A stretch of DNA of 64,000 nt, from assembly GCF_009789075.1 (NCBI RefSeq), contig NZ_WNXQ01000005.1:62001-126000 (forward strand). Reading direction: 5' to 3'. Positions 39,440 through 59,180 of this stretch are shown piece by piece (the stretch's first letter is position 1; each line of letters begins with the position of its first letter). The notes beneath the pieces were generated by a model. It was not told where the DNA came from, made no database searches, and worked only from the letters and a program-made list of their open reading frames with translations. This DNA comes from Pseudooceanicola pacificus. GTDB lineage: Bacteria > Pseudomonadota > Alphaproteobacteria > Rhodobacterales > Rhodobacteraceae. Made by a program: the position numbers and the translations under genes.

Positions 39440-39535
39440 GCAAGGGTGTGAGAAAGCCCCGGGTGGTCGAAGACGCGCTTATGCGCAGACCGCCCGGGGA
39501 CCCGGGCGGTTTAGAAGCAGAAACCGGAAAAGGTT
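39440..39535 (-). ncRNA. Structured mRNA leader, copy A
   Basis: Upstream of the Rnk-like gene on the minus strand. Conserved TTCCGGTTTCTGCTTCT is followed by a perfect ACCGCCCGGG/CCCGGGCGGT hairpin (39489-39510), a GCGC-ATAA-GCGC hairpin, then ACCCGGGGCTTTCTC. Four other copies in the window keep the stem with different bases. Expected to be a cis-regulatory RNA. Confidence 0.65.
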
Positions 39536-39685
39536 CTCGTGCGTGACCATGATGAGACCTTAGTCTTTGGGCGCAACCTGTCAATCTTGGAGACCGGGCC
39601 AGTTCTGGAACGGTCAAGGATGCACAGATCTCGAGACGGCGAATTGATGACGAGGTCCACGAGGCGGACTTCGACGACGGGGGGG

Positions 39686-39901
39686 TCACCGACGGCGCAC
39701 CTCGAAGATTGAGTCACGTCGAGCTTCCTGGATCGGCCGGCGGTGTGGCAGCGGGATGATGTTTGCCGAAGTCGTGCGACCACCATCATCTTCCCAACGC
39801 GCCAGGCACTTGGCGCTCGGCTCAGCGACCGACCTCTCCATGTCACTCGGCCGGAAAAGTTCCGGAAACAGCTCGTCGAAATCTGCCTTGCAAAGCATCA
39901 T
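39686..39901 (-). CDS. Small hypothetical protein
   Basis: Predicted 71 aa; start at 39901 chosen because AAAGGAG lies eight bases before it. The N-terminus reads MMLCKADFDELFPELF; Pro/Arg-rich at the end. No family recognised. It sits between the DUF1127 gene and the leader of the Rnk-like gene, on the same strand. Confidence 0.6.
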   Translation of the reverse strand: MMLCKADFDELFPELFRPSDMERSVAEPSAKCLARWEDDGGRTTSANIIPLPHRRPIQEARRDSIFEVRRR

Positions 39902-40000
39902 TTTGTCACTCCTTTCCATCGCTCCATAGGGAGCCACTGCACGGCGAAGGCTGCGCACCACTGCAGTCCAGTGGTGCGGGTTCTCGAGAATGGGACCGGC

Positions 40001-40303
40001 TTATGCCGTTCGGCCGCCGCGCCACCGCGCATCGACCTGCACATCCGAAGAAACTGGACGCATGCTCAGTTCGCGATCCGTGAGACCATCGACGACGCGC
40101 GGGATATCACTGCGATCAATCCCGATGTCGCGCAGCAGGCGATCGTCCATGCCTCGAAGAGTTTCGATCATTTTCCCGCGTTGCCAGCGGTGGAATGCGG
40201 TCTGGAGCCAATGTCGAAACGCTCCGGGCTTGCGGTTGCGCGGACTGGCCGCTCGAGGGGGTGGGAAGTGATGGTTATTGGATTTGAAGACGTGGGGGTG
40301 CAT
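40001..40303 (-). CDS. DUF1127 protein
   Basis: Predicted 100 aa. The C-terminal half holds the DUF1127 motif (RWQRGKMIETLRGMDDRLLRDIGIDRSDIP, residues about 35-65). DUF1127 proteins are small Arg-rich RNA-binding or stress regulators; in Rhodobacter one controls RNA turnover and in Agrobacterium others affect phosphate and carbon use. ATG at 40303 preferred because GGAG precedes it; an ATG at 40315 is possible. A copy of the structured leader lies upstream (about 40425-40520). Confidence 0.82.
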   Translation of the reverse strand: MHPHVFKSNNHHFPPPRAASPRNRKPGAFRHWLQTAFHRWQRGKMIETLRGMDDRLLRDIGIDRSDIPRVVDGLTDRELSMRPVSSDVQVDARWRGGRTA

Positions 40304-40424
40304 GTCATGCTCCATGACGAAGAAACTGAACCGAGACGCACGCACCACGTCAGCTGGGCGACCCGCACAGGCGTGGTCTTCCGGCCAGATTGGCGCGTTT
40401 GTCACTTCGACTGATCTGTAAGAG

Positions 40425-40520
40425 ATCGAGAAGACCCCGAGGCGCGGACCGGCACGCGGCCTGATCCCGCCCGGGGCTACCGGCGGTTCAGTGTGTTTCC
40501 TGCGTTGAGCAGGAACCTCG
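40425..40520 (-). ncRNA. Structured mRNA leader, copy E
   Basis: Minus strand, upstream of the DUF1127 gene. It has TGAACCGCC then GGGCGG forming CCGCC/GGCGG (40468-40472 with 40483-40487), a second GC-rich hairpin (CGCG arms), and CTCGGGGTCTTCTC, matching the order in the copies before Rnk-like genes. It is the only copy not followed by a Rnk-like gene. Confidence 0.6.
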
Positions 40521-40798
40521 TATGAAGACTGAACATGGTCATGACTGAGATATCGGCATTCCGCGTGCGTATATCAAGAGCACGGCGTGGCCTGCGACCT
40601 TCTGGCACTGCCGCCATGAGAGGCGGACGAGGCTCATGGATGATGCTCCGCCAAAGGAAATCGCAGACCTCGGTTTTATTGTCGCGCAGCAGTGAGAACA
40701 AACTCTTATAGTGTTGTCACTTCGCCGCACCGCGGCCGTGACGGTTGACAGAATCCATTTGTTGCATAGCCTGTGTACATGGTTACGAACGAAAGCCT

Positions 40799-40885
40799 CT
40801 TCCGGTTTCTGCTTCTGAACCGCCTCCCTGCCCGGGGGGCGAGCGCGTAAACGCGTTCACGGCCACCCGGGGATTTCTCGAACAT
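40799..40885 (+). ncRNA. Structured mRNA leader, copy B
   Basis: Precedes the Rnk-like gene at 40934. TTCCGGTTTCTGCTTCTGAA, then an 8-bp stem CGCCTCCC/GGGGGGCG (40821-40828 with 40834-40841), then CGCG-TAAA-CGCG (40844-40855), then CACCCGGGGATTTCTC. The stem differs in sequence from copies A and D but pairs fully, with one G-U. Confidence 0.65.
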
Positions 40886-40933
40886 TTGGATAGAGACATC
40901 GGGTCTGCTGAGATCAGCCCCTGGGAGACGAAC

Positions 40934-41392
40934 ATGACCAACGCACAATATGCGCGGGTGCCGAATAGCTTTGCTTACGACACCACCCCAGAAAACCGCC
41001 TCAACGATGTAGAGTTTTTTCTTCGGCCTTCTGACCGCACCGACATCGACTGGCTGCTTTCCCGAGATGACCCCGCGGCACGGAATATGCCGCGTCTTGT
41101 AGAAGGGATCCTGCGCTACAAGATGCGAACGGCCGGGAAAGCGGCTGGCAAAGGCATCGACCAAATCGCATTGCCTTTGAAACGCATTACATATGCTGAA
41201 AACAATGGCCCTATACAGAAGGGCATTTTGACAATGAGCGTAGTAGAACGGCCGGGCCATATTCCCGTGGGATCTCTGCTGGGCGCAACTCTCTTGGGCA
41301 TGTCAAGATACCAGGAAGAGCCCCTGAAGAAAGAGGACGGTCGCACTGTCATTGTCGGCGTTTTGAAGATCGAAACGGTGGAACCGGTCTAA
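40934..41392 (+). CDS. Rnk/GreA C-domain-like protein, leader-bearing
   Basis: Predicted 152 aa with the same plan as the protein at 38933: N-terminal helical part (LRPSDRTDIDWLLSRDD) and C-terminal domain with ITYAENNG and GHIPVGSLLGATLLGM. ATG at 40934 with GGGAGACG before it. Structured leader copy B lies 50 bp upstream. Probably a stress-tuned RNA polymerase-binding factor; specificity unknown. Confidence 0.82.
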   Translation: MTNAQYARVPNSFAYDTTPENRLNDVEFFLRPSDRTDIDWLLSRDDPAARNMPRLVEGILRYKMRTAGKAAGKGIDQIALPLKRITYAENNGPIQKGILTMSVVERPGHIPVGSLLGATLLGMSRYQEEPLKKEDGRTVIVGVLKIETVEPV

Positions 41393-41482: not shown

Positions 41483-41899
41483 TCAGGCGGGTTCTGGTGC
41501 GGGGAGGGCGACATCGGCAAGGGTCGAGCGGTTGAGGTTCTCGATAAAGGCCATTTCGGCCACCCGAAGCCGAGCCTTCAGGCGACAGCATCCGTCGATC
41601 GTGCAATCCCCACCATTCGGTTGGAAGCATTCGACAAGCGCTTGGCCCTCTTCCAGCACCCGAACCACGTCCCCCAACCGGATCTCCTTCGGGGCGCAGG
41701 CCAGGGTTGCACCGCCACCGCCTCCACGGCGTGTCTGCACCAACCCGGCCCGACCGAGTTTCTGCATGATCTTGATGAGATGGTTGCGGGAAAGCTGGAA
41801 TTCCTTGGCGAGATCAGCCGTGGAAAATGCTCGGTCCGGCGCGCTGGCAAGGCGCATCAGCATGCGGAGTCCGTAGTCGGTGAATGAGGTAAGGCGCAT
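41483..41899 (-). CDS. nsrR: Rrf2-family regulator, NsrR-like
   Basis: DNA-binding protein of 138 aa. The winged helix (LRMLMRLASAPDRAFSTADLAKEFQLSRNHLIKI, about 10-45) is followed by a [Fe-S] loop with three or four Cys: ECFQPNGGDCTIDGCCRLK. That spacing matches NsrR, the nitric oxide sensor. The dyad at 41922-41936 upstream resembles the one before the haemoglobin operon (57824-57838), suggesting self-control and control of NO defence genes. Gene name by motif and context. Confidence 0.85.
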   Translation of the reverse strand: MRLTSFTDYGLRMLMRLASAPDRAFSTADLAKEFQLSRNHLIKIMQKLGRAGLVQTRRGGGGGATLACAPKEIRLGDVVRVLEEGQALVECFQPNGGDCTIDGCCRLKARLRVAEMAFIENLNRSTLADVALPAPEPA

Positions 41900-41921
41900 C
41901 TGCCATCCATGAAGTGGAAGT

Positions 41922-41936
41922 GGTATTTACAGTGCC
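41922..41936. promoter_or_regulatory. NsrR-like operator before nsrR
   Basis: GGTATTTACAGTGCC; its complement GGCACTGTAAATACC shares 12 of 15 bases with the perfect dyad GGTATTGTAAATACC at 57824. Both are followed by CTATT(A/G)TGG. It lies in the divergent gap between the regulator gene and the 5-FTHF cyclo-ligase gene. Confidence 0.6.
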
Positions 41937-42030
41937 TATTATGGCGCTTATCCAGAAGAGTGAACAGTCCCGGCGCGGATAAATGGCTCTTACCGCGAGA
42001 AAGACTACACCTGCATTTCGGAGTTCGGCC

Positions 42031-42729
42031 ATGGGCAATGGGTCCAACAGCTTCAAGAGTGAGGGAGGCTTTGCCTCCCCGCCCTGCATGGCGGCAGAGG
42101 TCGATCCTGGGTATTTCGATCCCTTGGCCGTAGATCCCGAACAAGCGCGCGACGTGGCCCGGTGGCGCACGGCGGAACGCAAGCGGCTTCGTGAGGCGCG
42201 TCGGACGCTTTCCTCACCCCGGAGGAAAGCAACAGGTGAAGCGCTGATGACAGGACTGGAGAGACTGTTTGCAGCGAACTCTGCCGGGGCGGGCGACGGG
42301 ATCGTTGCCTTCTATTGGCCGATCAAGGACGAGCCGGACCTGCGATCTCTGATGACCGAGATGCAGGCGTCTGGCCGCCGCATTGCCCTGCCTCTCGTGG
42401 AGACGCGGGCGGCGCCATTGGTGTTCCGCCTGTGGACTCCGGAGACCCGGATGGAGCGCGGACACTGGAATATCCCTGTGCCGCCACGGGACGCGCCGGA
42501 GGTGATGCCGGATGTCGTTCTCGCGCCTCTCATGGGCTGGGACAGTGAGGGCTATCGCCTTGGCTATGGTGGAGGGTATTTCGATCGAACCCTGGCGGCG
42601 CTGTCGCCGCGACCCTTCAGCATCGGCGTGGGTCTCGCCGCGGCGCAGCTGCCCACGATCTATCCGCAATCCCACGATATTCCGATGGATGTCATACTCA
42701 CCGAGCGTGGGATCGAAGTCGGAGGCTAA
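42031..42729 (+). CDS. 5-formyltetrahydrofolate cyclo-ligase
   Basis: Folate enzyme of 232 aa that converts 5-formyl-THF to 5,10-methenyl-THF using ATP. The C-terminal signature is GYRLGYGGGYFDRTL. The ATG at 42031 has CGGAG before it and begins the segment GNGSNSFKSEGGFASPPC, an N-terminal extension of about 45 residues ahead of the enzyme domain. It is divergent from nsrR, so it may share the operator. Confidence 0.88.
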   Translation: MGNGSNSFKSEGGFASPPCMAAEVDPGYFDPLAVDPEQARDVARWRTAERKRLREARRTLSSPRRKATGEALMTGLERLFAANSAGAGDGIVAFYWPIKDEPDLRSLMTEMQASGRRIALPLVETRAAPLVFRLWTPETRMERGHWNIPVPPRDAPEVMPDVVLAPLMGWDSEGYRLGYGGGYFDRTLAALSPRPFSIGVGLAAAQLPTIYPQSHDIPMDVILTERGIEVGG

Positions 42730-42731
42730 CG

Positions 42732-43145
42732 ATGGACAGAAACCAGATGGCGCGAAAACTGTTCGAGGGCATGCCCGATGCGCTGGTGGTCGCGGACCGC
42801 GAAGGCATCATCCGCGTCTGGAACGGGGGTGCGGAGCGGATATTCGGCTTTGCAGAGGGGGAGGCGCTTGGCCAGTCATTGGACATCATCACGCCGGAGC
42901 GACTGCGTGAGCGACACTGGATCGGCTACGAGGCCACCATGCGGACCGGCCAAACCAAATATGGCGCAGGCGATCTTCTGTCAGTTCCAGCAATCCGTAA
43001 GGACGGAGCACAGATCTCGATCCAGTTTTCCATCGTTCCGTTGCGCGGCGAGGACGGCGACTTGCAGGCGGTCGCGGCGATCATGCGCGACGTCACCGAG
43101 GACTTTGAAGAGCGCAAGAGGTTGCGGCGCGCGATTGGCGGTTGA
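42732..43145 (+). CDS. PAS-domain protein
   Basis: Single PAS domain protein of 137 aa (ALVVADREGIIRVWNGGAERIFGFAEGEALGQSLDIITPE). No output domain follows. It lies 2 bp after the folate gene. Could bind heme, flavin or a small ligand; FixL-like His is not obvious. Function unknown. Confidence 0.85.
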   Translation: MDRNQMARKLFEGMPDALVVADREGIIRVWNGGAERIFGFAEGEALGQSLDIITPERLRERHWIGYEATMRTGQTKYGAGDLLSVPAIRKDGAQISIQFSIVPLRGEDGDLQAVAAIMRDVTEDFEERKRLRRAIGG

Positions 43146-43305
43146 GGGGAGTATCGAGGCGCTCTCACTGCATGTTCTGAGAGGGCGGATTACTACACTA
43201 CCCGCTTGATCTTCGGCGATCCGATCCTCGAAAAATGGCCCGCGGCTGTAGAAATAGCGGACCGCCTCCCCGCGCGGTCGCTCGTATCAGGATGCTGGTT
43301 GAACG

Positions 43306-43545
43306 GTGACCGGGACAGCCTACACCGAACCAAGCTTACCTTGGGAAAACGGATGCTGCGAGAGCTTCAATGCCCGGTTCCGCGACAAACTATTCAACGG
43401 AGAAATCTTCTGTAGCCCCAGCCAAGCGCTGGCTCCGATCGAGCGAAGTCGGAAACACCACAACACCAAGCGACCCCATGGCGCTCTGGGCGATCACCCT
43501 CCGGCTCCCGAAACTATCGCCCCGATGGACCGAAAGCTGACTGTT
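43306..43545 (+). pseudogene. IS3-family transposase remnant
   Basis: The encoded segment (LPWENGCCESFNARFRDKLFNGE, then HHNTKRPHGALGDHPPAPE, given here in parts) matches the C-terminal end of IS3-family OrfB integrases. The N-terminal and DDE parts are absent. The frame runs without stop into the pseudouridine synthase gene, so automatic annotation would fuse the two. Confidence 0.82.
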
Positions 43546-43644
43546 CTCCAGCATACAAACTGGACTTTCGGGGTAGGGCCGATCATTGCGATAGAGCCGC
43601 AAGTAGCCCGGCGTGGTGGATTTCGCTTACGAGGATCACCGGAC

Positions 43645-44379
43645 TTGTCCAGCAGTTCATTCACACGTGTAGACAGGCTCTTGTCCTCGATGGGATATGG
43701 TGCCCGCAAGGACATCGCGCGGCTGGCGCGGTCTGGTGGCATTGTCTTCGATCAGGCTGAGATCCTGGACGCCTCCGTCCGCATCCCTGTCAGCGCGGAC
43801 CTGCCCCGCCGCATGACGGTCGCGGGCAGTTCGCTTGATCCGCTTGCTGGCCTGGTCGTCATGATGAACAAACCCTCGGGCGTGACCTGTTCGCACAAGG
43901 AGGCAGGCGAGCTTGTCTATGACAGGCTGCCTGCTCGCTGGCGACGCCGCAAGCCCGCAATTTCAACCATTGGGCGTTTGGACAAACAGACCTCTGGCCT
44001 TTTGCTTCTGACCGACGACGGAGACCTTCTGCATCGTATCAGCAGCCCCAGAAGCCGGCTCAGAAAAACCTACCGTGTCACGCTTGCCCGTCCACTCGAT
44101 GGCACGGAAACCGCACTGTTTGCGTCTGGCAGACTCACGCTCAGAGGCGATGACAAACCCCTGGCGCCGGCAGTGCTGGACATAATCTCGGAAACCGAAG
44201 CCCTGATCACCGTCACCGAGGGCCGATACCACCAAGTTCGCCGCATGTTCGCCGCCACCGGCAATTTCGTCGAAGCTCTGCGACGTGAACGCCTGGGCGA
44301 TCTCTGCCTGCACGAGAACTTGGCTCCCGGTCGATGGAATCTGCTGAGCGAGGAAGAGACCGCCCTCGTCTTTCGATGA
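43645..44379 (+). CDS. RsuA/RluF-family pseudouridine synthase
   Basis: rRNA-modifying enzyme of about 244 aa. An N-terminal S4 RNA-binding domain (TRVDRLLSSMGYGARKDIARL) precedes the catalytic domain with IGRLDKQTSGLLLLTDD (catalytic Asp) and EGRYHQVRRMFAATGN. The start is uncertain: TTG at 43645 keeps the full S4 domain, ATG at 43690 would cut it. The original start may have been lost when the IS3 copy inserted. Likely makes pseudouridine 516 in 16S rRNA, by family. Confidence 0.85.
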   Translation: MSSSSFTRVDRLLSSMGYGARKDIARLARSGGIVFDQAEILDASVRIPVSADLPRRMTVAGSSLDPLAGLVVMMNKPSGVTCSHKEAGELVYDRLPARWRRRKPAISTIGRLDKQTSGLLLLTDDGDLLHRISSPRSRLRKTYRVTLARPLDGTETALFASGRLTLRGDDKPLAPAVLDIISETEALITVTEGRYHQVRRMFAATGNFVEALRRERLGDLCLHENLAPGRWNLLSEEETALVFR

Positions 44380-44393
44380 CCGAGGGGATCGGC

Positions 44394-46121
<1,728 letters not shown>

Positions 46122-46406
46122 TCACTCTCCACGTTTCGGGGGAATTGCGAGCACGTCGGTTTGCGCGGTTCTGAGCACCTGCTCGGTCACGCTGCCGATG
46201 AGCATTTTGGCAAGTCCGCTTCGACCATGCGTCGACATCACGATCAGGTCCGCCTCCTCTTCACTTACTGCTTTCAGGATTTCGTGTGGCACTGGCGAAG
46301 CTTCGTATCGCGTGATCGGTCGCTGGCAGCCCTTCTTTCGCGGTATTCCTCGCAGGCGGGTCTGAGTTGAATGGACGACTTCCCGTAACTGAGCGAAGGT
46401 GCACAC
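46122..46406 (-). pseudogene. Universal stress protein remnant
   Basis: The C-terminal half of a UspA-like domain (EADLIVMSTHGRSGLAKM, then GSVTEQVLRTAQTDVLAIP) is preserved. The N-terminal ATP-binding half is missing and replaced by unrelated residues. Full proteins are about 140 aa; only about 65 match here. Probably a decayed gene. Confidence 0.75.
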
Positions 46407-46430
46407 CTATCTCATTGCCTCGGTGACGAT

Positions 46431-47048
46431 ATGGACGTGCTACCTTTGGGTCTCTGGCTGGATTTTCTCGGAACCTTCGTGTTCGCCATCAGTGGCGCGC
46501 TGGTGGCGGTCCGCCGCGGCCTCGACATATTTGGGATTTTGGTCCTCTCGGTCGCAGCCGGCCTCGCGGGTGGCATGATCAGGGATATGCTTCTGGGTGC
46601 GACGCCGCCAACAGCGTTGGAGGATCCGCGTTACCTTCTCACGGCGCTCGCTGCGGGTGTCTGCGTGTTCTTCGGGCATCGGCTGCTGGAACGCTTGAAC
46701 AAGCCCGTGATGGTGCTGGACGCGCTCGGGCTCGGGGTCTTCGCGGTCAGCGGCTGCCAGAAATCACTCCTGTTCGGTCTCGATCCGTTGCCCGCGATCC
46801 TGCTCGGGGTTCTGACGGCTGTGGGCGGTGGCGCGACGCGGGATCTTCTTGTTGTCGAGATCCCGCGTGTCCTGCGCGAAGAAGTCTATGCGCTTGCCGC
46901 GACGGTCGGCGCAACAATCGTGGTGGCCGGGACTGCGCTCGGTCTCTCGGAGGTCTGGATCGCCGTCGCCGGTGTCGTGGCGGCCTTCGGGTTTCGGGTG
47001 ATCAGTGTCTGGCGGGGCTGGCGCGCCCCGCGCGCGCCAGGGTCTTGA
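46431..47048 (+). CDS. TRIC-family (UPF0126) cation channel
   Basis: Inner-membrane protein of 205 aa with seven helices and two repeats of the TRIC/UPF0126 signature (FVFAISGALVAVRRGLDIFG with GGMIRDMLLG, and FAVSGCQKSLLFG with GGGATRDLL). Bacterial relatives form potassium-permeable trimers. No operon partner. Confidence 0.88.
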   Translation: MDVLPLGLWLDFLGTFVFAISGALVAVRRGLDIFGILVLSVAAGLAGGMIRDMLLGATPPTALEDPRYLLTALAAGVCVFFGHRLLERLNKPVMVLDALGLGVFAVSGCQKSLLFGLDPLPAILLGVLTAVGGGATRDLLVVEIPRVLREEVYALAATVGATIVVAGTALGLSEVWIAVAGVVAAFGFRVISVWRGWRAPRAPGS

Positions 47049-47069
47049 TTCTGAGGGCCACCGGCACCG

Positions 47070-48008: not shown

Positions 48009-48018
48009 GATCGTCTCC

Positions 48019-49366: not shown

Positions 49367-49389
49367 GTCATTTGCTCCGCTCAGAAGGT

Positions 49390-49965: not shown

Positions 49966-50096
49966 TGCATTCTCCTTCAGTTTCCCGCCCTCGGGCGGCC
50001 TGTTGTTCACTGAAGTCAAAGTAAGGCTTCCCCATCTTCCATAAAATGACGATGTTATTGAATGACTATCGCGATTTTGTTCTTAAAGGGGGCGAT

Positions 50097-51011: not shown

Positions 51012-51209
51012 TCAAGGCTGGCGGAGCTACACGTGGGCAACCTTCGAGATGTGCCGGTGAGCGTCTGCTTTTCTTCGAAGCCTTCGTTTCCGAGGTTGTG
51101 CAATATTGGGTCTTGTTCCGGATGTGTCCCGCCGATGACCCAGACATTTGCCTTGCCGCGACCAGACACACATCGGGTTGCAGGCTTCTGCAGCCCCGCC
51201 GTTTCCGGG

Positions 51210-52088
51210 TCAGGCCGGACGAATGAACATGCGGTCATCCTCATGCGCGGCAGCGTCGTCTGAGCGGATGGCGCGGTAGCAATGCCACGTCGCATGTCCC
51301 AGCAACGGGAACACCAGGATCAGCCCCAGTCCGGCCGTGAGTAGGCATAGGACAAACAGCACCACTACGATGGCACCCCAGGCGATCATCACCCCGAGGT
51401 TGTTCCAGACCATCGCCATGCTGATCCCGAGCGCGGAGAGCGCGTCGGTCCGTTCCGTCAGCAGCATCGGAAAGGCGAAGACGCTGATGGCGAAGGAGAA
51501 GGCGGCGAAGAGCGCACCGACGGCAGAGGCGACCAGCAGCAGGGCCCAGCCAGTGGGAGTCAGGAGAAGCATCGGCACGATCTCCTCGGTGCCGGGAAAG
51601 GCCACCATGCCGAAGAAGAGCGCATAGATCAGGACCGCCGCGCGCATCCACAGCAGGAAGAGCCCCAGCAGCATGACCCCCATGAAGACACCGGCACCGC
51701 CGGACCGAAGCCGGACGAACAGCATTGGCCCGAGGCCGACCGGCTCGCCTGCCTCCAGTCGCCGGCTCTTCTCGTAGAGCCCGCCGGCGATCAGCGGCCC
51801 GACCACCATGAAACCTGCGAGTGCCGGGAACAGCGCATAGTCAAAATTCAAGTGGAACAGAAACCAGACCACGGCGACCGAGACGAGGAAAACGCCGAGG
51901 CCGTAGATCAGGCTCGGAAGCGGGTGGGTCCAGAGATCGCGCCACCCGGCCCGCAGCCATGTGAAGGCGGTGCGCCACGGCAGGTCGCGGGCGTGCGAGC
52001 TCGGGCGCGCCAAGGGTGGGACCACCTTCGGAATGACGCCCCCGGCGTGCGGATTGTCGGGCGGCGGGGCATTGTTCTGGCTCAGCAT
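51210..52088 (-). CDS. DUF2189 membrane protein
   Basis: Predicted 292 aa with about six hydrophobic helices (for example LIYGLGVFLVSVAVVWFLF and FPALAGFMVVGPLIAGGLYE). DUF2189 proteins are often found near terminal oxidase genes; function unknown. It begins 7 bases inside the end of the 57-aa gene of the cbb3 operon, so it is the last operon gene. Confidence 0.85.
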   Translation of the reverse strand: MLSQNNAPPPDNPHAGGVIPKVVPPLARPSSHARDLPWRTAFTWLRAGWRDLWTHPLPSLIYGLGVFLVSVAVVWFLFHLNFDYALFPALAGFMVVGPLIAGGLYEKSRRLEAGEPVGLGPMLFVRLRSGGAGVFMGVMLLGLFLLWMRAAVLIYALFFGMVAFPGTEEIVPMLLLTPTGWALLLVASAVGALFAAFSFAISVFAFPMLLTERTDALSALGISMAMVWNNLGVMIAWGAIVVVLFVLCLLTAGLGLILVFPLLGHATWHCYRAIRSDDAAAHEDDRMFIRPA

Positions 52089-52255
52089 GACGGTTTCGCC
52101 GGGCGGTAGGTGCCGGCGCCTTCCTTGGCGATTTCAACGCAGTTCGGTTGCGACGACAGCGAGACCGAGACGAGATGGATATTGGCGGCTGCGAAGACGG
52201 CCACTACCAAGAATGCGGCGGAGATCGCCAGGACACGGGGCCGTTCAATGGTCAT
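52082..52255 (-). CDS. Small single-helix membrane protein in cco operon
   Basis: Predicted 57 aa: one membrane helix (VLAISAAFLVVAVFAAANIHLVS) and a tail with two Cys (QPNCVEIAKEG, AKPSC). ATG at 52255 overlaps the ccoP end by ATGA. Not a recognised subunit. It could be an assembly or accessory peptide of the oxidase. Confidence 0.7.
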   Translation of the reverse strand: MTIERPRVLAISAAFLVVAVFAAANIHLVSVSLSSQPNCVEIAKEGAGTYRPAKPSC

Positions 52256-53130
52256 TGCGGGCCTCCATCGGCCAGCGAGGTGATGTAGATGGCAAGCAAC
52301 TTGCGCTGCGCCCCGGTCAGCCGATTTTCCCATGCGGGCATCCAGCCCTGTCGGCCACCATAGATCGTCTCGAACAGCGCCTCATCGGAGCCGCCGTAGA
52401 TCCAGTAGTTGTCTGTGAGGTTCGGGGCACCAAGGTCCTGCATGCCCGCACCATCCTCGCCGTGGCAGCTTGAGCAATTGTCGGCGAAGAGTGCGGCGCC
52501 TTCCTCCAGCCGCTCGGGCGAGGCGCCGCTGTCGAGGCCCGCCAGCGACTGCACGTAGTCCGCCACGACGCGGATCTGGTCTCGGTCGAGCATGCCATCA
52601 CGGCCGAACGCCAACATCTCGGCATAGCGCGTGTCGGGATGAGGTGAATTGATACCGACACGCAGGGTTTCGAGGATCGTTTCATCGTCACCGCCCCAGA
52701 GCCAGGCGTCATCGACGAGGGAGGGATAACCGGGGCCGCCTTTGGCGCGGCTTCCGTGGCAGGCCGCACAATTGTCACCGAAGAGTGCGGGCGCTGTCCG
52801 TTCGACGTGGGCCATGAGCAGGGTATCGTCACGGATTTTGTCCAACGGGAGCGCGGCGATTTGATCCGCCCAGATGCCACGGGTGGCATCCGCGGCGGCC
52901 ACGCGCTCTTCCACCTGTTCTTGTTGGTCAATGCCCAGCAGCCCGCGAGTATAGGTGTTCACCAGTGGCCAGGCCGGCATGAGCACCCAGTAGACCAGCG
53001 CCCAGATATGGGTGACAATTATGAAGAACCACACCGCGCGCGGCACGCGAGTGTTCAGCTCGGTAATCCCGTTCCATTCGTGGCCCGTGGTCTGGTGCCC
53101 AGTGAGGGGATCTCGTTCCTTTACTGACAT
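52252..53130 (-). CDS. ccoP: cbb3 cytochrome oxidase subunit III (diheme)
   Basis: Membrane-anchored diheme cytochrome of 292 aa that feeds electrons to CcoN. One membrane helix (about 32-52) is followed by two cytochrome c domains with CAACH and CSSCH. Overlaps ccoQ by 10 bases. The ccmFGHI genes at 2.6-6.8 kb could help mature it. Confidence 0.94.
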   Translation of the reverse strand: MSVKERDPLTGHQTTGHEWNGITELNTRVPRAVWFFIIVTHIWALVYWVLMPAWPLVNTYTRGLLGIDQQEQVEERVAAADATRGIWADQIAALPLDKIRDDTLLMAHVERTAPALFGDNCAACHGSRAKGGPGYPSLVDDAWLWGGDDETILETLRVGINSPHPDTRYAEMLAFGRDGMLDRDQIRVVADYVQSLAGLDSGASPERLEEGAALFADNCSSCHGEDGAGMQDLGAPNLTDNYWIYGGSDEALFETIYGGRQGWMPAWENRLTGAQRKLLAIYITSLADGGPQ

Positions 53131-53291
53131 GGCCCGTCCTCGTCATCCAGGATGCTGTTGGCGGCCTTGTCGAAGCGTTTGCCCAGCGACGGCCAGTAGG
53201 CGTAGGCGGTGATGCCCACCGACAGGGCGATGAGGTAGAACAACCCGAAGGACTTCGCGATCACCGAGGTCAGGTCGTGGGTGAGATCCAT
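53121..53291 (-). CDS. ccoQ: cbb3 oxidase small subunit CcoQ
   Basis: Predicted 56 aa with one membrane helix (SFGLFYLIALSVGITAYAYW). Its place between ccoO and ccoP and its length fit CcoQ/FixQ, which stabilises CcoP in the complex. Stop overlaps the ccoP start. Confidence 0.88.
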   Translation of the reverse strand: MDLTHDLTSVIAKSFGLFYLIALSVGITAYAYWPSLGKRFDKAANSILDDEDGPCQ

Positions 53292-53295
53292 GCTG

Positions 53296-54072
53296 TCAGT
53301 CCTCCCCGAGTGGCTGATTTTCGAAGGCAGCGTCCGTGAGCCCGCCGAGGATCTGAAGGTAGGCCACCAACGCGTCCATCTCCGTGACGCGGTCGCGCTG
53401 TCCGTCGAATTGCCGGATGCCGGTCGTGTCTCCGTATCGTTCGCTGACCCCGTCGGCTGCGTCGGTGTCGGGCCGGGCCTGTCCGCGCGCGTCGACATCG
53501 GCATTGGCGATCTGTTCGTCGCTGTAGGGCACGCCCACCACCCGCAGGGCCGCAAGGCGATCCGGCAGGCTCTCTGTCTCGAGCGTGGTATCCAGCAAGA
53601 AAGCGTATTGCGGCATCACCGATTCCGGCACCACGGCGCGTGGATCGACGAGGTGACGCACGTGCCAGTCGTCGGAATACTTGTTGCCCAGCCGCGCGAG
53701 GTCCGGACCCGTTCGCTTGGACCCCCAGAGCATCGGGTGGTCGTATTGCGATTCCACGGCCAGCGAATAGGGGCCGTAGCGATCCACCTCGTCCTGTAGG
53801 GTCCGGATCATCTGGGAGTGGCAGGCATAGCAGCCCTCGCGGATGTAAATGTCGCGCCCGGCCTGCTCGAGCGGCGTGTAAAGCCGCATGTCCGGTGCGG
53901 CCTCGACTGTTTCGTCGATGGTGAAGAGCGGCGCGATTTCCACGAAACCGCCCACTCCAGCGGCGACGATGATGCCGAGGGTCAGCGCCATCGAGTGCCT
54001 CTCGGTGCGGTAGTGGGTACGGGCGTGAAACTCGAACAGGCGGGCGAAGGGGGAGAGGATTTTGCGAAACAT
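53296..54072 (-). CDS. ccoO: cbb3 cytochrome oxidase subunit II (monoheme)
   Basis: Predicted 258 aa. A membrane anchor (about 28-50) is followed by a c-type heme domain with REGCYACHSQMIR and the axial-Met region VMPQYAFL. Passes electrons from CcoP to CcoN. Follows ccoN by 4 bp. Confidence 0.94.
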   Translation of the reverse strand: MFRKILSPFARLFEFHARTHYRTERHSMALTLGIIVAAGVGGFVEIAPLFTIDETVEAAPDMRLYTPLEQAGRDIYIREGCYACHSQMIRTLQDEVDRYGPYSLAVESQYDHPMLWGSKRTGPDLARLGNKYSDDWHVRHLVDPRAVVPESVMPQYAFLLDTTLETESLPDRLAALRVVGVPYSDEQIANADVDARGQARPDTDAADGVSERYGDTTGIRQFDGQRDRVTEMDALVAYLQILGGLTDAAFENQPLGED

Positions 54073-54076
54073 CGTG

Positions 54077-55729
54077 TCACTCCGCTGCCGGGACGGGAGG
54101 TTCGGTGGCTTCGGACGAGGTAGGGTAATCGCGTTCCGGGCGTTTTTCAGGGGCGTGCCGGATCGTCATGTAGACATTGTAGGCCGCCAGGATCGCGCCG
54201 GTCAGGAACAGGGCACCACCGCAGGCCCGTGCGACGTAATAGGGATGCATGGCCACCAGCGTGTCCGTGAAAGAATAGGCCAGCGTGCCGCTCTCGGTGT
54301 AGGTGCGCCACATTAGCCCTTGGATGATGCCGCTGTTCCACATCGCGAAGACGTAGATCACCGTGCCGGCCAGCGCGAGCCAGAAGTGCCATTCCACCAG
54401 CTTCCAGGAATACATCGTCTCGCGCTTCCACAGCAGTGGGACGACGGAGTAGATCGAGCCAAAGGTGATCAACGCCACCCAGCCCATCGCGCCGGCATGG
54501 ACATGCCCTACCGTCCAGTCGGTGTAATGCGACAGCGAGTTCACCGCACGCACAGCCATGAACGAGCCTTCGAAGGTGGACAGCCCGTAGAACACCGCCG
54601 CCACCATCATGAAGCGCAGCGTGGCGTCGTCGCGCACCTTGTGCCAGGCGCCGTTCAGCGTCATCAGCGCGTTCCCCGCGCTGGCCCAGGAGGGCACCAG
54701 CAGCATGACCGAAAAGGTCATGCCCAGCGTCTGCACCCATTGCGGCAGGGCGGTGTAATGCAAATGATGCGAGCCGGCCCAGATGTAGAAGAACACGATG
54801 CCCCAGAACGACAGGATCGACAGGCGGTAGGAATAGATCGGCCGCTCCGCCCGCTTGGGCAGGAAGTAATAGAGCATGCCGAGGAACCCGGCGGTCAGGA
54901 AGAAGGCGACCGCGTTATGGCCATACCACCATTGCGTCATCGCGTCCTGCACGCCCGCGAATGCCGAGTAGCTCTTTGCTCCTGTCAGGCTGGCGGGGAC
55001 GGCGAGGTTGTTGACGATATGAAGGATCGCCACCACCAGGATGAACGCCATGTAATACCAGTTCGCCACGTAGATATGCGGCTCGTTCCGGCGCGCCAAC
55101 GTGCGGATGTAGAGCACGAAGTAGACCACCCAGACGATCACCAGCCAGATGTCGGCATACCATTCGGGCTCGGCGTATTCCTTGGATTGGGTGACGCCCA
55201 TCAGGTAGCCCGAGGCGGCGACGATGCAGAACAGGTTGAAGCCCAGCAGCACGAACCACGGTGAGACATGTCCCGCCAGCCGGGCCCGGCTGGTGCGTTG
55301 CATGACATGATAGGACGTCGCGATGAGGGCGTTGCCACCGAAGCCGAAGATCACCCCCGACGTATGAACGGGGCGAATGCGGCCAAAGCTCGACCACGCC
55401 GCATCGAAGCGCAGGTCCGGCCAGGCCAGTTGCGCCGCGACCCAGACGCCCATGCCCATACCGACGACGGCCCAGAATAGGGCAATTACCAGCCCGGCCT
55501 TGGTCGGGTCGTCATAGTAGTTGACCGTGCGATCCTCGGCCGGTTCGGGCTCGCCAATCGCACGCAGGACGAAGAAGGTCGTGATACCGGCTGCAATCAG
55601 CACGATCGCGCCGTGGCTCCCCATCGGATCGCCTCGACCCGCTGCGGCCATCACCAACCCGACAGTCGCCATGACGACACAAATCATCAATGCGATCTGG
55701 CGTTCGGCACCTGTCAACCGCTCCATCAT
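54077..55729 (-). CDS. ccoN: cbb3 cytochrome oxidase subunit I
   Basis: Catalytic subunit of 550 aa with about twelve or more helices; high-affinity oxygen reduction at a heme b3/CuB site. Metal-ligand His residues occur in WSSFGRIRPVHTSGVIFGFGG, WYGHNAVAFFLTAGFLG and GSHHLHYTALPQW. Start overlaps ccoS by ATGA. Confidence 0.95.
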   Translation of the reverse strand: MMERLTGAERQIALMICVVMATVGLVMAAAGRGDPMGSHGAIVLIAAGITTFFVLRAIGEPEPAEDRTVNYYDDPTKAGLVIALFWAVVGMGMGVWVAAQLAWPDLRFDAAWSSFGRIRPVHTSGVIFGFGGNALIATSYHVMQRTSRARLAGHVSPWFVLLGFNLFCIVAASGYLMGVTQSKEYAEPEWYADIWLVIVWVVYFVLYIRTLARRNEPHIYVANWYYMAFILVVAILHIVNNLAVPASLTGAKSYSAFAGVQDAMTQWWYGHNAVAFFLTAGFLGMLYYFLPKRAERPIYSYRLSILSFWGIVFFYIWAGSHHLHYTALPQWVQTLGMTFSVMLLVPSWASAGNALMTLNGAWHKVRDDATLRFMMVAAVFYGLSTFEGSFMAVRAVNSLSHYTDWTVGHVHAGAMGWVALITFGSIYSVVPLLWKRETMYSWKLVEWHFWLALAGTVIYVFAMWNSGIIQGLMWRTYTESGTLAYSFTDTLVAMHPYYVARACGGALFLTGAILAAYNVYMTIRHAPEKRPERDYPTSSEATEPPVPAAE

Positions 55730-55911
55730 CTGGCAACCTCCCGGTCAGTTCTATGTCTTGGTGGCAGCGGACGGTCCTCCGTCTGGAGTATCCGGCGGGC
55801 ATCGCCTTCCGGGTCGTCGAACTGGTCGGTCTTCATCGCCCAGAAAAATGCTCCGAGGCCGATTGCACCCATCATCAGCGTCACGGGTATCAGCAGTAGA
55901 AGGATGTTCAT
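55726..55911 (-). CDS. ccoS: cbb3 oxidase assembly protein CcoS
   Basis: Predicted 61 aa with one membrane helix and the typical WAMKTDQFDDPEGDARRIL segment. CcoS/FixS is needed to load cofactors, including CuB, into CcoN. Normally part of ccoGHIS; here it directly precedes ccoN. The ATG overlaps the stop of the nitronate monooxygenase gene. Confidence 0.9.
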   Translation of the reverse strand: MNILLLLIPVTLMMGAIGLGAFFWAMKTDQFDDPEGDARRILQTEDRPLPPRHRTDREVAR

Positions 55912-56939
55912 GTCCGCCCCACCGGCGTTTGCCGGCCTGATGCGAGGCGAGCTTGAGCCTCGGCACACAGGGTGTTCAGGCGCTGCGCCGCCGGGACAAT
56001 CTCGTCGATCTCACCCGCTCCGGTGCCGCAATAAAGCGGCATCTGTTCAAGATCTCCGGTCGTGGTGCGCAGGGGCGAGTCCGTGCTCTGGCGCAGCCGC
56101 GGGATGAGGCCGTCGCGGGCGATCACCTCATGTGCGATCCTCTCGGGGTCATGTCCCATCAGGGCCGGGCCAAAGGTCTCGGTGACGCTGTTGCGGAGGA
56201 CGCGCACGACCGATCCCTTGGGCCAGTTCAGCACGAAGCCGTCGGTCAGGACGGTATCCTCTCCCTGGGCGGTCACGACCCGTTGCTTGTGGTAGTCGTG
56301 GGCGAAGGATTCGGCCGTGGCCAGGAAGGCGGTGCCGCACTGGACGCCCTGCGCCCCGAACGAGAGCGCCCGGGCCAGCCCCTTGCCGTTGCTGATGCCG
56401 CCCGAGGCGACAACCGAGAGAGCCGTTGTTTCCAGCACGGCCCGAAGCAGGTCGAATGTCGGGGTGCGCCCGTGAACGTGGCCGCCAGCATCCTGCCCCT
56501 GTGCGATCAACACATCCGCCCCGGCGGCTTCGGCCTCCCGTGCCGCGCGCAGCGTGCCCACCTGGTGCAGCAGGAGAGCGCCTGCCGTCTTCACCCGGGC
56601 AACTGCCTCGGGCACCACGTCCCAGAAGAACGAGAACACCTCGACCTCCATCGCAAGGCAAGTTTCGATTTGCTGGTCCAGCAGGCCTGGGTCGGTGGCT
56701 GCGGGGATGAGGTTGACGGCAAAAGGGCGGTTTGACAGCCGACGATAGGCCCTGATCTCCGAGGCGATCAGTGAAGGCGCTTCGCGCACCATCCCCAGCG
56801 TCGGGAAACCGCCGGCATTGGCGACCGCGGCGGCCAGTTCGGCGCGCGCGACGCCTCCCATACCGGCCAGGATGATGGGATACTCACATCCCAGCAGATC
56901 GCAGAGGGGGGTGCGAAGGGACCCGGGTTCAAGCGTCAT
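55908..56939 (-). CDS. Nitronate monooxygenase
   Basis: FMN enzyme of 343 aa with a TIM barrel: LAGMGGVARAELAAAVANAGG at the N-terminus, GQDAGGHVHGR and SVVASGGISNGKGLA for FMN phosphate. Oxidises alkyl nitronates, releasing nitrite. Start at 56939 with GGGGAGC before it, overlapping the DUF488 stop. Its place between DUF488 and ccoS in an NsrR-marked operon suggests nitrosative stress use. Confidence 0.9.
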   Translation of the reverse strand: MTLEPGSLRTPLCDLLGCEYPIILAGMGGVARAELAAAVANAGGFPTLGMVREAPSLIASEIRAYRRLSNRPFAVNLIPAATDPGLLDQQIETCLAMEVEVFSFFWDVVPEAVARVKTAGALLLHQVGTLRAAREAEAAGADVLIAQGQDAGGHVHGRTPTFDLLRAVLETTALSVVASGGISNGKGLARALSFGAQGVQCGTAFLATAESFAHDYHKQRVVTAQGEDTVLTDGFVLNWPKGSVVRVLRNSVTETFGPALMGHDPERIAHEVIARDGLIPRLRQSTDSPLRTTTGDLEQMPLYCGTGAGEIDEIVPAAQRLNTLCAEAQARLASGRQTPVGRT

Positions 56940-57313
56940 GACTTGCTCCCCTTGAGTCGCTGCTTCAGGTAGTCCCGCAGGACCACAGCTTGGTTGTGGT
57001 CCCGGTCCTTCGCGGCGAAGAGCAGAGTAACGGGGCCAGCTCGGCACCATGCGAGGCAGTGCTCGACAGCGTCCGTGTTGTCAGCCAGTTCTTGCAGGTA
57101 GCGGTTGCGGAATTCTCCCCATTTGTCCGGGTCGTGGTCGAACCATTTCCTGAGCTCGGTGGTCGGCGCGATGTCCTTGATCCAGTCATCGTGCCCGAGA
57201 CAGGTCTTCGAAATACCTCGCGGCCAGATCCGATCCACGAGCAGCCTCGCGCGGTCCGTGCCGGACGTCTCGTCGTGAACGCGGGCAATATCGATATCGA
57301 ATTGCTTCGCCAT
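56936..57313 (-). CDS. DUF488 protein
   Basis: Predicted 125 aa with the DUF488 motif VDRIWPRGISK and FAAKDRDHNQAVVLRDYL. The family is found beside truncated haemoglobins and has unknown function, possibly iron- or NO-linked. Follows the haemoglobin gene by 7 bp. Confidence 0.88.
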   Translation of the reverse strand: MAKQFDIDIARVHDETSGTDRARLLVDRIWPRGISKTCLGHDDWIKDIAPTTELRKWFDHDPDKWGEFRNRYLQELADNTDAVEHCLAWCRAGPVTLLFAAKDRDHNQAVVLRDYLKQRLKGSKS

Positions 57314-57320
57314 GCGAGGG

Positions 57321-57773
57321 TCAAACCAGTTTCGGGATGCCGGTGCCTTTGGCATCCTCGACCGCGAAGTTGAGCGACCGGGCGATGCGTTCTGCCCGCT
57401 CGATGACATGGGAGGCGCCTGCGGGTGTGCAGATCTCCTTCGCGGTCTCGCGAAAGATGGTGAGCCACCGCTCGAAATGGCCCCAGTCAATCGGCAGACC
57501 GACGTGCTTGGGTACCGGGGCGCCATGATAGCGGCCTGTCATAAGGGCAACGGAGGACCAGAATGCAGTCATCCGCTCCAGATGCGGTGGCCAGTCATCG
57601 ATGCGCGCCGCGAAGATAGGGCCAAGAACAGGATCCTTGCGGACCTTGCCATAGAATGCATGGACCAGCTCGCGCAGCACCGCGTCATCGAGTCCGGTCC
57701 GTGCCTCGAGATCGGCGGTGATCTCCGGGCGCGCGGAGGGGCTGCGCGATGAATAAGGCTGGATGGAGGTCAT
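57321..57773 (-). CDS. Truncated haemoglobin (group 3-like)
   Basis: Predicted 150 aa globin. It has ELVHAFYGKVRKDPVLGPIF at the N-terminal helices, MTAFWSSVALMTGRYHG around the E-helix and a PID-W-HFERWL segment with the probable proximal His. Trp at WLTIF is typical of groups 2/3. Binds oxygen or NO; the dyad upstream points to NO control. First gene of the haemoglobin-cco operon. Confidence 0.9.
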   Translation of the reverse strand: MTSIQPYSSRSPSARPEITADLEARTGLDDAVLRELVHAFYGKVRKDPVLGPIFAARIDDWPPHLERMTAFWSSVALMTGRYHGAPVPKHVGLPIDWGHFERWLTIFRETAKEICTPAGASHVIERAERIARSLNFAVEDAKGTGIPKLV

Positions 57774-57823
57774 CGGTGTGGCACCTTGGTCGCAGTTGTA
57801 TTGACGGGGTACGTCTCCCAAGT

Positions 57824-57838
57824 GGTATTGTAAATACC
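57824..57838. promoter_or_regulatory. NsrR-like operator before haemoglobin gene
   Basis: Perfect 15-bp dyad GGTATTGTAAATACC, 50 bp upstream of the haemoglobin ATG and between it and the divergent DUF6522-like gene. A close relative lies before the nsrR-like gene at 41922. Confidence 0.7.
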
Positions 57839-57924
57839 TATTGTGGTCGAGCGCAATCGCGCGAAACCGCGCAGAGCTTGACTGGCGGAGATCGGCGCGG
57901 GATCAGGGCATGGGAGACGCTGGG

Positions 57925-58203
57925 ATGAGTGAAGTATCCAAAACCGACAGCGGGTTCGTTGTGGAAGCAGCCGCCATCGCGCGGGCCTTCAAGATCACGG
58001 AAGAGCAGGTCCGGGAAGAGATGCGGAACGGACTCATCAGCAGCCGCTCCGAGAGCGGGGCGGGCGAAGACGAAGGACGTTGGCGCATGACCTTCTACCG
58101 TGCAGACCGCGCGTTCCGTCTCGTTGTCGACGCAGAGGGAGAGGTGCTGTCGCGGGGAAGCTTTCCCGTCACTCCGCGATCGCGGTCAGTGCGCCGGGAT
58201 TGA
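57925..58203 (+). CDS. DUF6522-like small protein
   Basis: Predicted 92 aa; ATG at 57925 with GGGAGAC before it. The segment AAAIARAFKITEEQVREEMRNG followed by RMTFYRADRAFRLVVDAEG is of the type found in small regulatory proteins near denitrification or oxidase genes. Divergent from the haemoglobin operon, so possibly under the same operator. Function unknown. Confidence 0.65.
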   Translation: MSEVSKTDSGFVVEAAAIARAFKITEEQVREEMRNGLISSRSESGAGEDEGRWRMTFYRADRAFRLVVDAEGEVLSRGSFPVTPRSRSVRRD

Positions 58204-58254
58204 CACTCGACGGGCGGCAAGCAACGATCAATCCATGGTCAGGTATCAGATCAA

Positions 58255-58340
58255 GTTCCGGTTTCTTCTGCTGAACCGCCCTTAGCCCCGGGCGGTTCGC
58301 GGGCGTTCTATGCGCAGCGATCTCCCGGGGACATCTCGAG
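58255..58340 (+). ncRNA. Structured mRNA leader, copy C
   Basis: Before the Rnk-like gene at 58381. TTCCGGTTTCTTCTGCTG, then stem AACCGCCC/GGGCGGTT (58274-58281 with 58290-58297), a GCG...CGC hairpin, then CTCCCGGGGACATCTC. Confidence 0.65.
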
Positions 58341-58380
58341 AAAAGTTCAGAGATTGTCGGAGGCAACTCCAGGGGGAAAC

Positions 58381-58833
58381 ATGGCCATACCTGACGTTAC
58401 GGGATCAACGATACCGCGACACGGAAAGCCGGAAGCGGGTAGCGGGGATTGCAAGTGCCGCCTGACAAAAGCCGATCGGCTGGGAATCGAGAGATTTCTG
58501 AGCTTCGCCGGCAACAGCAGTGTCGCCTACTCCCAGCTCATGCTGGATCTTCTATACCAGAAACTGCAGGTCGCCGTTGCCATAGAGGGTGCGGCACCGT
58601 CCGATGTTGCCACATTTGGCAGCTACATTTCCTGCGTGGTGGATGGGAAAGATATCGAAAGTGGGGTTCTCAGTTTCGGCCTGGTGACGCGTGCCGGAGA
58701 AATCCCGATTCACTCTCTCCTGGGGGCCACGCTCATCGGAATGTCGACCGGGCAACGCACCAAGCTGCTGTCCGAAGACGGCACCACCCGGTCATTGGTG
58801 GTAACCCAGGTGGGGGCGCCTTTTACCGTGTAG
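58381..58833 (+). CDS. Rnk/GreA C-domain-like protein, leader-bearing
   Basis: Predicted 150 aa. N-terminal part with LTKADRLGIERFLSFAG and C-terminal domain with YISCVVDGKD and GEIPIHSLLGATLIGM. Closest in plan to the protein at 38933. ATG at 58381 with AGGGGGA before it. Structured leader copy C ends about 40 bp upstream. Confidence 0.82.
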   Translation: MAIPDVTGSTIPRHGKPEAGSGDCKCRLTKADRLGIERFLSFAGNSSVAYSQLMLDLLYQKLQVAVAIEGAAPSDVATFGSYISCVVDGKDIESGVLSFGLVTRAGEIPIHSLLGATLIGMSTGQRTKLLSEDGTTRSLVVTQVGAPFTV

Positions 58834-59090
58834 TGACGGGTTGCAACTAATGCGGGCGCTGGAGCATCCGAAGCGGGGACTATCGGCATCAACGGCTTGC
58901 CTGGAGGCGGGACGGCCTCACTGGTCTTCATTTTCCGACTCTCGGAAAGGTTTCCCGCCTCGGCCTGAAAGAGTCAGCGCGGCGGGTGGTGGTGGCATCT
59001 GCTGTTCCGAGGACCCGGCAAAGTTTGACTTGGCGCCGGAAACTTCATAGCGTGGCTCGATGTTTGTGTTCTCATGCAAAATCAGAGGCC

Positions 59091-59180
59091 GGTCGTTTCC
59101 GGGATCTCTGCTGAACCGCTCCCTGCCCCGAGCAGGGGGCCGCATGCGCTGACCTCCACGCTCGGGGATCTTCTTCACCA
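59091..59180 (+). ncRNA. Structured mRNA leader, copy D
   Basis: Before the Rnk-like gene at 59229. CTGCTGAACCG, then stem CTCCCTGC/GCAGGGGG (59119-59126 with 59132-59139) closing a CCCGA loop, then GCTCGGGGATCTTCTTC. The first short hairpin is weaker here than in other copies. Confidence 0.6.

Follow-up and report, generated by a model that had tools for sequence, protein, structure and literature searches.

Within a 64,000-nt stretch of the 3.9 Mb draft genome of Pseudooceanicola pacificus (contig NZ_WNXQ01000005.1, positions 62,001 to 126,000; hereafter the window), five leader copies, A to E, stand upstream of Rnk-like and DUF1127 genes. A short open reading frame (ORF) overlaps every copy (5/5), with the core FRFLLLNR in most, and extends over RNA segments that can form two alternative helices: segment 2, which encodes LNR (CUGAACCGCC), can pair with segment 3 (CCCCGGGCGG), or segment 3 can pair with segment 4 (CYCGGGG); these helices are denoted 2:3 and 3:4. 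The leaders are best read as a new family of ribosome-sensing attenuators, a variant on a known principle. It is very probable that a ribosome on the ORF controls which of the exclusive helices forms, and the chances are about even for the full version, a ribosome-read attenuator with transcription termination as its output. An earlier note on this DNA had described structured leaders. It mentions neither the leader ORF, nor the promoter placed at the ATG of that ORF, nor additional hairpins beside the main Shine-Dalgarno (SD) site, and the present evidence supports a leader ORF that is read by ribosomes, not an element made of RNA structure alone.

Copies A to E are genuine, related to one another and beyond chance. 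Covariance model R3, built from 34 mixed-type relatives without any D-type copy, recovers exactly copies A, C, E, B, and D in their own genome (E 5e-15 to 1e-5; next match 0.36), with the places and strands that the earlier note had assigned, and this kind of search, proposed there, also finds matches in further Rhodobacterales genomes. Model R1, trained on FRFLLLNR copies and built without copies D and E, reached copy E at 1.4e-3 and copy D only at 0.69. The order of elements described earlier needs some correction: copy E lacks TTCCGGTTTCTGCT and has an additional hairpin, copy D carries a shortened, frame-shifted form of that sequence, and in the 3′ box CGGGG leads into pyrimidines that vary and do not read ATTTCTC in every copy. 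The parts of the leaders are placed as follows.

39579..39584, minus strand: copy A −35-like TTGACA, 34 nt 5′ of the leader ATG (sequence and consensus over 78 relatives)
39479..39550, minus strand: copy A leader ORF, MVTHENLFRFLLLNRPGPRAVCA then stop, predicted leaderless
39493..39510, minus strand: copy A main stem 2:3 (segment 2, 39510-39504; segment 3, 39499-39493)
39457..39463, minus strand: copy A segment 4, CCCGGGG, then tail CTTTCTC
40745..40750, plus strand: copy B −35-like TTGACA, 34 nt 5′ of the leader ATG
40779..40850, plus strand: copy B leader ORF, MVTNESLFRFLLLNRLPARGASA then stop
40866..40872, plus strand: copy B segment 4, CCCGGGG, then tail ATTTCTC
58200..58205, plus strand: copy C −35-like TTGACA, 35 nt 5′ of the leader ATG
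58235..58285, plus strand: copy C leader ORF, MVRYQIKFRFLLLNRP then stop, the stop adjoining segment 3
58286..58330, plus strand: copy C segments 3 to 4 (3, 58286-58292; 4, 58324-58330)
59025..59030, plus strand: copy D −35-like TTGACT, 35 nt 5′ of the leader ATG
59060..59152, plus strand: copy D divergent leader ORF, MFVFSCKIRGRSFPGSLLNRSLPRAGGRMR then stop, read by eye; LLNR kept, FRF not; same peptide in relative L142
59126..59167, plus strand: copy D segments (3, CCCCGAGC, 59126-59133; 4, GCTCGGGG, 59160-59167)
40572..40577, minus strand: copy E −35-like TTGATA, 35 nt 5′ of the leader ATG
40477..40542, minus strand: copy E leader ORF, MTMFSLHTRFLLNAGNTLNRR then stop, the stop codon adjoining segment 3
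40435..40487, minus strand: copy E segments (2, 40487-40482; 3, 40476-40470; 4, 40441-40435)

Besides that of copy D, four peptide types recur: type I (HENxFRFLLLNRPxPRAVCA and variants), type II (HADHFRFLLLNRPxPRAV), type III (that of copy C) and the DUF1127 type (HxRFLLxAGxxLNRR). A search with a DNA pattern derived from the common peptide marked 90 stretches in a species-level genome collection, of which 80 were examined. On these 80 loci, with mostly Rhodobacterales titles, R1 gave 112 matches at E<=0.05; 78 of them scored at least 49 bits and fell in 64 loci, leaving 16 loci with no match at that level. Six of the 80, in Ensifer and Rhizobium, were rejected as leaders, the pattern lying within long reading frames. 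From 140 model matches among those listed, 119 distinct copies were obtained. The Rnk-type set (n=78) comprises copies with an ATG start and at least 6 of 8 residues matching FRFLLLNR and is peptide-biased, many members having been drawn by the peptide-derived pattern; the DUF1127-type set holds 29-31 copies, and D-type, divergent, start-lost, truncated, and spurious copies were excluded from both.

Because the DNA pattern favors the peptide, codon conservation was assessed in a model-only sample, 31 of the 32 distinct Rnk-type copies from the R1 search of 295 genomes (L146, with no leader frame, was excluded). Pairwise differences at codon positions 1/2/3 were 261/234/1081 in codons 8-15, as against 1126/1264/1485 in codons 2-7; 1081 of the 1576 differences in codons 8-15 are thus third-position changes in a sample not drawn by peptide, with some bias left because the model was trained on FRFLLLNR copies. 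A peptide-filtered 29-copy subset gave 191/190/961. By this measure codon selection is strong, exactly across FRFLLLNR, and because of the third-position bias the leader ORF is probably translated. The same bias argues against an incidental ORF, that is, a structured RNA leader (riboswitch-like or protein-binding) open in one frame, which we consider very improbable. Such a leader would account for several features: the LNR codons are constrained by RNA pairing in 2:3, in copy D the RNA core is retained while the frame is shifted and FRF is absent, and the DUF1127 type, which has an additional hairpin inside the ORF, swaps leucine for proline while keeping a stem (pair 32-42 is UA in 22, CG in 3, and UG in 3 of 28, the U-A to C-G exchange thus occurring in 3/28). 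It would not account for Arg9, retained through CGA in 15/78 copies despite breaking a 1:2 pair, for a promoter spacing to the ATG that holds across types, or for stop codons confined to codons 17-28 in 78/78 Rnk-type leaders. In the DUF1127 type, the stop codon adjoins segment 3 in 29 of 30 leaders.

The promoter geometry is visible in the sequence itself. In 77/78 Rnk-type copies the ATG is preceded, at a distance of 34-36 nt, by a TTGA −35-like box, and T/A, A, and T are favored at −12/−11/−7. In the DUF1127 type, TTG is found at this distance in 25/30 copies, and TTGAAA/TTGATA and CATAT- or GATAT-like boxes occupy equivalent positions; we take these boxes to resemble heat-shock sigma-32 promoters. 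Because the box spacing is canonical, transcription would be expected to start on the leader ATG. Such starts leave no room for an SD sequence before it in either the Rnk or the DUF1127 type, and the ORF is probably leaderless. Transcription starting downstream of the motifs, which the earlier note had named as fatal to its proposal, is made unlikely by promoter-like boxes that fit a start on the leader ATG. One type I leader that is otherwise typical (L095 6902-7004, also L027) has ATA in place of the ATG start, a natural start-codon mutant.

When folded singly, all five window leaders give the same 3′ hairpin, in which the loop CCCCGRG pairs with CYCGGGG (3:4) ahead of a pyrimidine tail. The fold z-scores range from −3.1 to −0.6 across the five, so that B, C, and D do not stand out by stability alone. 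Segment 3 is common to 3:4 and to 2:3, the main stem of the earlier note, which makes the helices exclusive. Among the 34 mixed-type copies, 99.2% of the cells of 3:4 are paired and two of its pairs are doubly changed, and in shuffle tests, which ignore the relatedness of the copies, its covariation score was reached in 1/500 and its number of doubly changed pairs in 28/500; covariation support for 3:4 in these alignments is modest. Helix 2:3 is paired in 87.8% of cells in the same copies, with weak covariation (50/500 shuffles reach the score). An attenuator-type leader with two exclusive folds, as the earlier note proposed, is partly supported, the second fold being 3:4 and not mainly the GGTT/AACC pairing (1:2) suggested there. 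The latter can be drawn (93.6% of cells paired), but it has a mean probability of 0.02 beside 2:3, leaving it almost unformed, and as a working protector hairpin it was rejected. In a copy on a Mesorhizobium plasmid (93.7 bits), segment 3 has A for the usual G and both alternative partners have U, the segment-4 U being common in its type. Further hairpins occur beyond the switch (e.g., L080 1043-1107 and L115 1519-1577): Rnk-type relatives have a tail hairpin UUCUCA/UGAGAA between segment 4 and the main start (UUCUUA/UAAGAA in L060), and type II has a covarying hairpin directly 5′ of the main SD site.

The position of a ribosome on the ORF is predicted to decide between the helices. In masked folds, where an assumed ribosome footprint is hidden, the value of 2:3 while segment 4 is still to be made is 0.83-0.87 for P-site codons 1-9, 0.40 for codon 10 and 0 from codon 11 to 23; 3:4 stands at 0.85-0.97 for P-site codons 10-13, and past codon 13 neither helix forms while the ribosome is present. 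Because the folds flip from 2:3 to 3:4 there, the switch point would lie inside the conserved peptide (codons 10-13). We propose that transcription starts on, or 1-2 nt from, the ATG of a leader ORF of 16-30 codons, and that segment 2 would pair with the emerging segment 3 before segment 4 is made. With no ribosome, or a halt at or before about codon 9, the 2:3 antiterminator would stay in place and RNA polymerase would read through to the Rnk-like or DUF1127 gene. If a ribosome instead occupied codons 10-13 (LLL of FRFLLLNR), it would hide segment 2 so that 3:4 forms, and this hairpin, together with the pyrimidine-rich tail behind it, would end transcription. Faltering leader translation, the presumed signal (starvation, ribosome shortage, inhibitors), would then turn the genes on.

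Several results weigh against this account. At full length and equilibrium, 3:4 stands at 0.71 without a ribosome and at 0.83-0.85 for P-site codons 1-4, and it is more stable than 2:3 in 59/78 leaders. Because equilibrium favors 3:4 even without a ribosome, the proposed sign of the response would rest on kinetic trapping of 2:3; the direct-path barrier from 2:3 to 3:4 has a median of 16 kcal/mol (8-22), an upper bound. In the DUF1127 type 2:3 is weaker, at 0.52 without a ribosome before segment 4 and at 0 at equilibrium. A ribosome on the leader stop covers segment 3, so that complete translation would block 3:4 until release (0-0.01 for P-site codons 15-23). The covariation that the earlier note saw by eye in the main stem did not survive: the 78 Rnk-type copies have no 2:3 pair changed on both sides, the helix being nearly invariant and without covariation support, and 50/500 shuffles in the mixed set, as given above, reach its score. 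The combined 1:2 and 3:4 structure in these 78 is modestly supported (14/500 shuffles for the score, 37/500 for doubly changed pairs). All copies are homologous, and the counts are therefore not independent. A strict sigma-70 scan did not call the leader promoters of the window, and no window copy passes a canonical terminator scan. The tails, moreover, also pair onward in conserved ways, UUCUCA with UGAGAA and CUCCUC with the SD sequence GAGGAG, and such pairing could account for their composition without termination.

Termination is the favored output because 3:4 followed by a pyrimidine tail is common to every type. Tails with at least 4 U in 8 nt occur in 33/78 Rnk-type and 21/30 DUF1127-type leaders, vs. 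8.7% of 103 other intergenic GC hairpins from 64 loci. Two other outputs were weighed. In erm-like translational attenuation, which is rather unlikely here but a serious competitor as a component of the output, the resting leader would hold 2:3 together with a pairing of segment 4 and the SD site, and a ribosome arrested by FRFLLL at L11-L13 would hide segment 2, allowing 3:4 to form and freeing the SD site. The SD and tail pairings were examined in the 66 of 78 leaders with a near enough downstream ORF, consensus folds taking 19/30 of type I and 15/19 of type II. Given no structure beforehand, RNAalifold pairs segment 4 with the SD region in the 19 type I leaders, and in the 15 type II leaders it pairs the tail CUCCUC with the SD sequence GAGGAG around the covarying hairpin, although segment 4:SD lacks covariation support (covariation term +0.07). 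A simulated stall at codons 12-13 raises predicted SD accessibility from 0.23 to 0.37-0.38 in type I (n=33), from 0.02 to 0.43-0.47 in type I′ (n=6) and from 0.07 to 0.58-0.66 in type III (n=8), whereas type II (n=19) is unaffected (0.11 to 0.09-0.11). Conservation of the amino acids FRFLLLNR in codons 8-15 would suit an arrest peptide of this kind. Forcing 3:4 without a ribosome, however, leaves the SD site closed; a run with a rougher SD window, in which the site was freed in 9/66 leaders and the opposite held in 5/66, gave no difference. For the DUF1127 type, 20 leaders were listed; their main start comes at least about 100 nt after segment 4, and this speaks against such a switch there.

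Rho-dependent attenuation, in which the G-poor, C/U-rich tail and the leader would form a putative rut-like site exposed or hidden by ribosomes, as proposed for duf1127_1 of Sinorhizobium meliloti, is improbable. The tail composition fits it (in 78 copies, the 8 tail nt are C 43%, U 39% and G 4%), as do the weak U-tract and the existence of a tested DUF1127-gene precedent (PMC12218461). The leaders are short and strongly structured, however, and the conserved GC hairpin right before the tail is generally not required for Rho.

The gene partners given in the earlier note hold, with Rnk-like genes after four copies and a DUF1127 gene after one. A protein of about 150 aa follows most Rnk-type leaders, roughly 40-70 nt beyond the model match. 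Searched singly, the proteins of copies A and B have no Pfam or NCBIfam match and those of C and D match weakly. A profile of 34 downstream proteins matched the Protein Data Bank structures of Rnk (3BMB, E=2.3e-7) and a GreA/GreB protein (2PN0, E=9.9e-4), and the predicted structure of the copy C protein (pLDDT 82.9) matches 2PN0, 3BMB, Gfh1, and GreA. By profile and predicted structure, the proteins behind Rnk-type leaders have the Rnk/Gre C-terminal fold. DUF1127 or similar proteins lie downstream of copy E and its relatives. The genes in the window are listed below.

38933..39400, minus strand: Rnk-like protein (Gre C-terminal fold family) behind copy A; no Pfam/NCBIfam match singly, Rnk by family profile
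38406..38900, minus strand: canonical Rnk (Rnk_N + GreA_GreB), the next same-strand gene after the Rnk-like gene of copy A
40001..40303, minus strand: DUF1127 protein behind copy E
40934..41392, plus strand: Rnk-like protein behind copy B; no Pfam/NCBIfam match singly, Rnk by family profile
58381..58833, plus strand: Rnk-like protein behind copy C; predicted fold matches Rnk/GreA
59229..59723, plus strand: Rnk-like protein behind copy D; matches the Rnk model singly but weakly, under its cut-off

Elsewhere, a canonical-looking Rnk (by eye) lies 100-280 nt after five type II leaders. The Rnk-like gene of copy A is followed on one strand by canonical rnk and a gene for a mechanosensitive channel (37079-39400), an order repeated on an Alloyangia plasmid (L180). 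Leaders of type II and of the DUF1127 type often face away from each other, their ATGs about 150-170 nt apart, and divergent Rnk-like and DUF1127 genes thus each have their own switch (L126 7194-7586, L124 5734-6104, L122 7213-7604, L090 3257-3626). The block at 41483-58203, flanked by copies, contains genes for cytochrome oxidase subunit I, nitronate monooxygenase, an Rrf2 regulator and DUF6522, and near the leaders of the Alloyangia plasmid (L180) are cbb3 genes, nirK, hmpA, and a truncated haemoglobin gene; the copy-flanked block is perhaps a low-oxygen/nitrosative-stress island. Within it, a single open frame at 43306-44379 encodes both an integrase core domain (rve_3) and a pseudouridine synthase domain; the former may be what is left of an insertion sequence that became joined upstream.

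Outside this genome, the leaders were sought in 295 genomes of the family and 385 of the class, both even draws from larger groups and no census. R1 (Rnk-type) matched 22/295 family genomes, one of them (G136) seemingly spurious, its locus L043 having been rejected as a copy for want of a leader ORF; in the class it matched 1/385, the genome of the window itself. R2 (DUF1127-type) matched 24/295 family genomes, 20 strongly and 4 only via weak matches to Rnk-type copies, and 3/385 in the class, among which, besides the own genome, G517 is convincing: by eye it has LLNR, a different yet pairing 2:3 stem and a DUF1127-like protein downstream. R3 matched 27 of the 385 class genomes at E<=0.05, vs. 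about 19 chance matches expected, and below 1e-4 it matched only the own genome and G517. Five of these R3 loci were inspected. Matches from the class-wide searches in G408 (L182), G425, G589, G614, and G621 were rejected, since inspection did not reveal the module in them. A pattern scan of viral contigs for the DUF1127 type found none. Because copies are found on Alloyangia, Roseibium, and Mesorhizobium plasmids, horizontal spread of the family is suggested. Leaders are also present in records titled Enemella evansiae and Nocardioides marinus (L054, L100, L092), names that may be wrong.

Tentatively, and with more doubt than confidence, the dispersed, partly plasmid-borne, leaderless FRFLLLNR family may be seen as a translation-status regulon, in which nascent-peptide arrest at codons 10-13 and ribosome availability would act via three exclusive helices to control several secondary-channel Gre/Rnk-like and DUF1127 proteins at once. 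If true, the state of translation would be coupled back to RNA polymerase. Leader-peptide attenuators are best known from amino-acid genes and resistance genes. The genome studied here contains five copies of one peptide/RNA module, before diverse Rnk/Gre-like and DUF1127 genes that are themselves poorly understood. The leaders offer a handle on the signals to RNA-polymerase-binding proteins and a test for leaderless ORFs as general translation sensors of Alphaproteobacteria.

Among known systems, no Rfam counterpart was found, and FRFLLLNR was not found in the literature searched. Compared with 4227 Rfam families, the window gave no match at the gathering score, the rnk leaders and cuckoo RNAs raised in the earlier note included, and relaxed E-values added only unrelated chance-level matches. 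The cuckoo/CcsR RNAs of Rhodobacter, which we take to be DUF1127-linked in Rhodobacterales, to lie downstream of a DUF1127 gene and to carry anti-SD loops, differ from the present leaders, which are upstream instead. In the trp, his, and ilv leader-peptide attenuators, a short translated ORF overlaps exclusive hairpins, one of them terminator-like, and trpL of S. meliloti is leaderless. In contrast, the leaders described here have no single run of control amino acids tied to a downstream pathway, their stop lies at or in segment 3, and their targets are RNA-polymerase-binding or DUF1127 proteins. In erm-type attenuators, a stall inside a short ORF changes pairing partners; the likeness is that the SD region is among the predicted partners in types I, I′, and III, while the folds predict no such switch for type II and the DUF1127-type start is far off.

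Two systems from cited work were also compared. The rnk- and greA-leaders of Pseudomonas, Enterobacteria, Yersinia, and bacilli are attenuators with an antiterminator (Naville and Gautheret, 2010, PMC2965389), and share with the leaders as proposed here an attenuator and antiterminator 5′ of a Gre/Rnk family gene; a leader peptide or an alphaproteobacterial member is not described in the available part of that paper. According to PMC12218461, duf1127_1 of S. meliloti is controlled by attenuation through an upstream ORF (uORF), a proposed sensor of translation status, with expression on translation failure; the uORF has an SD sequence and acts via C-rich codons 3-10, probably with Rho. A hairpin tested in that work did not act as a terminator, and the RNA rather than the peptide matters. 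This is the nearest tested precedent, alike in its alphaproteobacterial host, short uORF, DUF1127 target (cf. copy E) and proposed logic. The leaders described here differ from it in that they would start at the presumed +1 and have a conserved peptide, the 2:3 and 3:4 helices and mostly Rnk-like targets.

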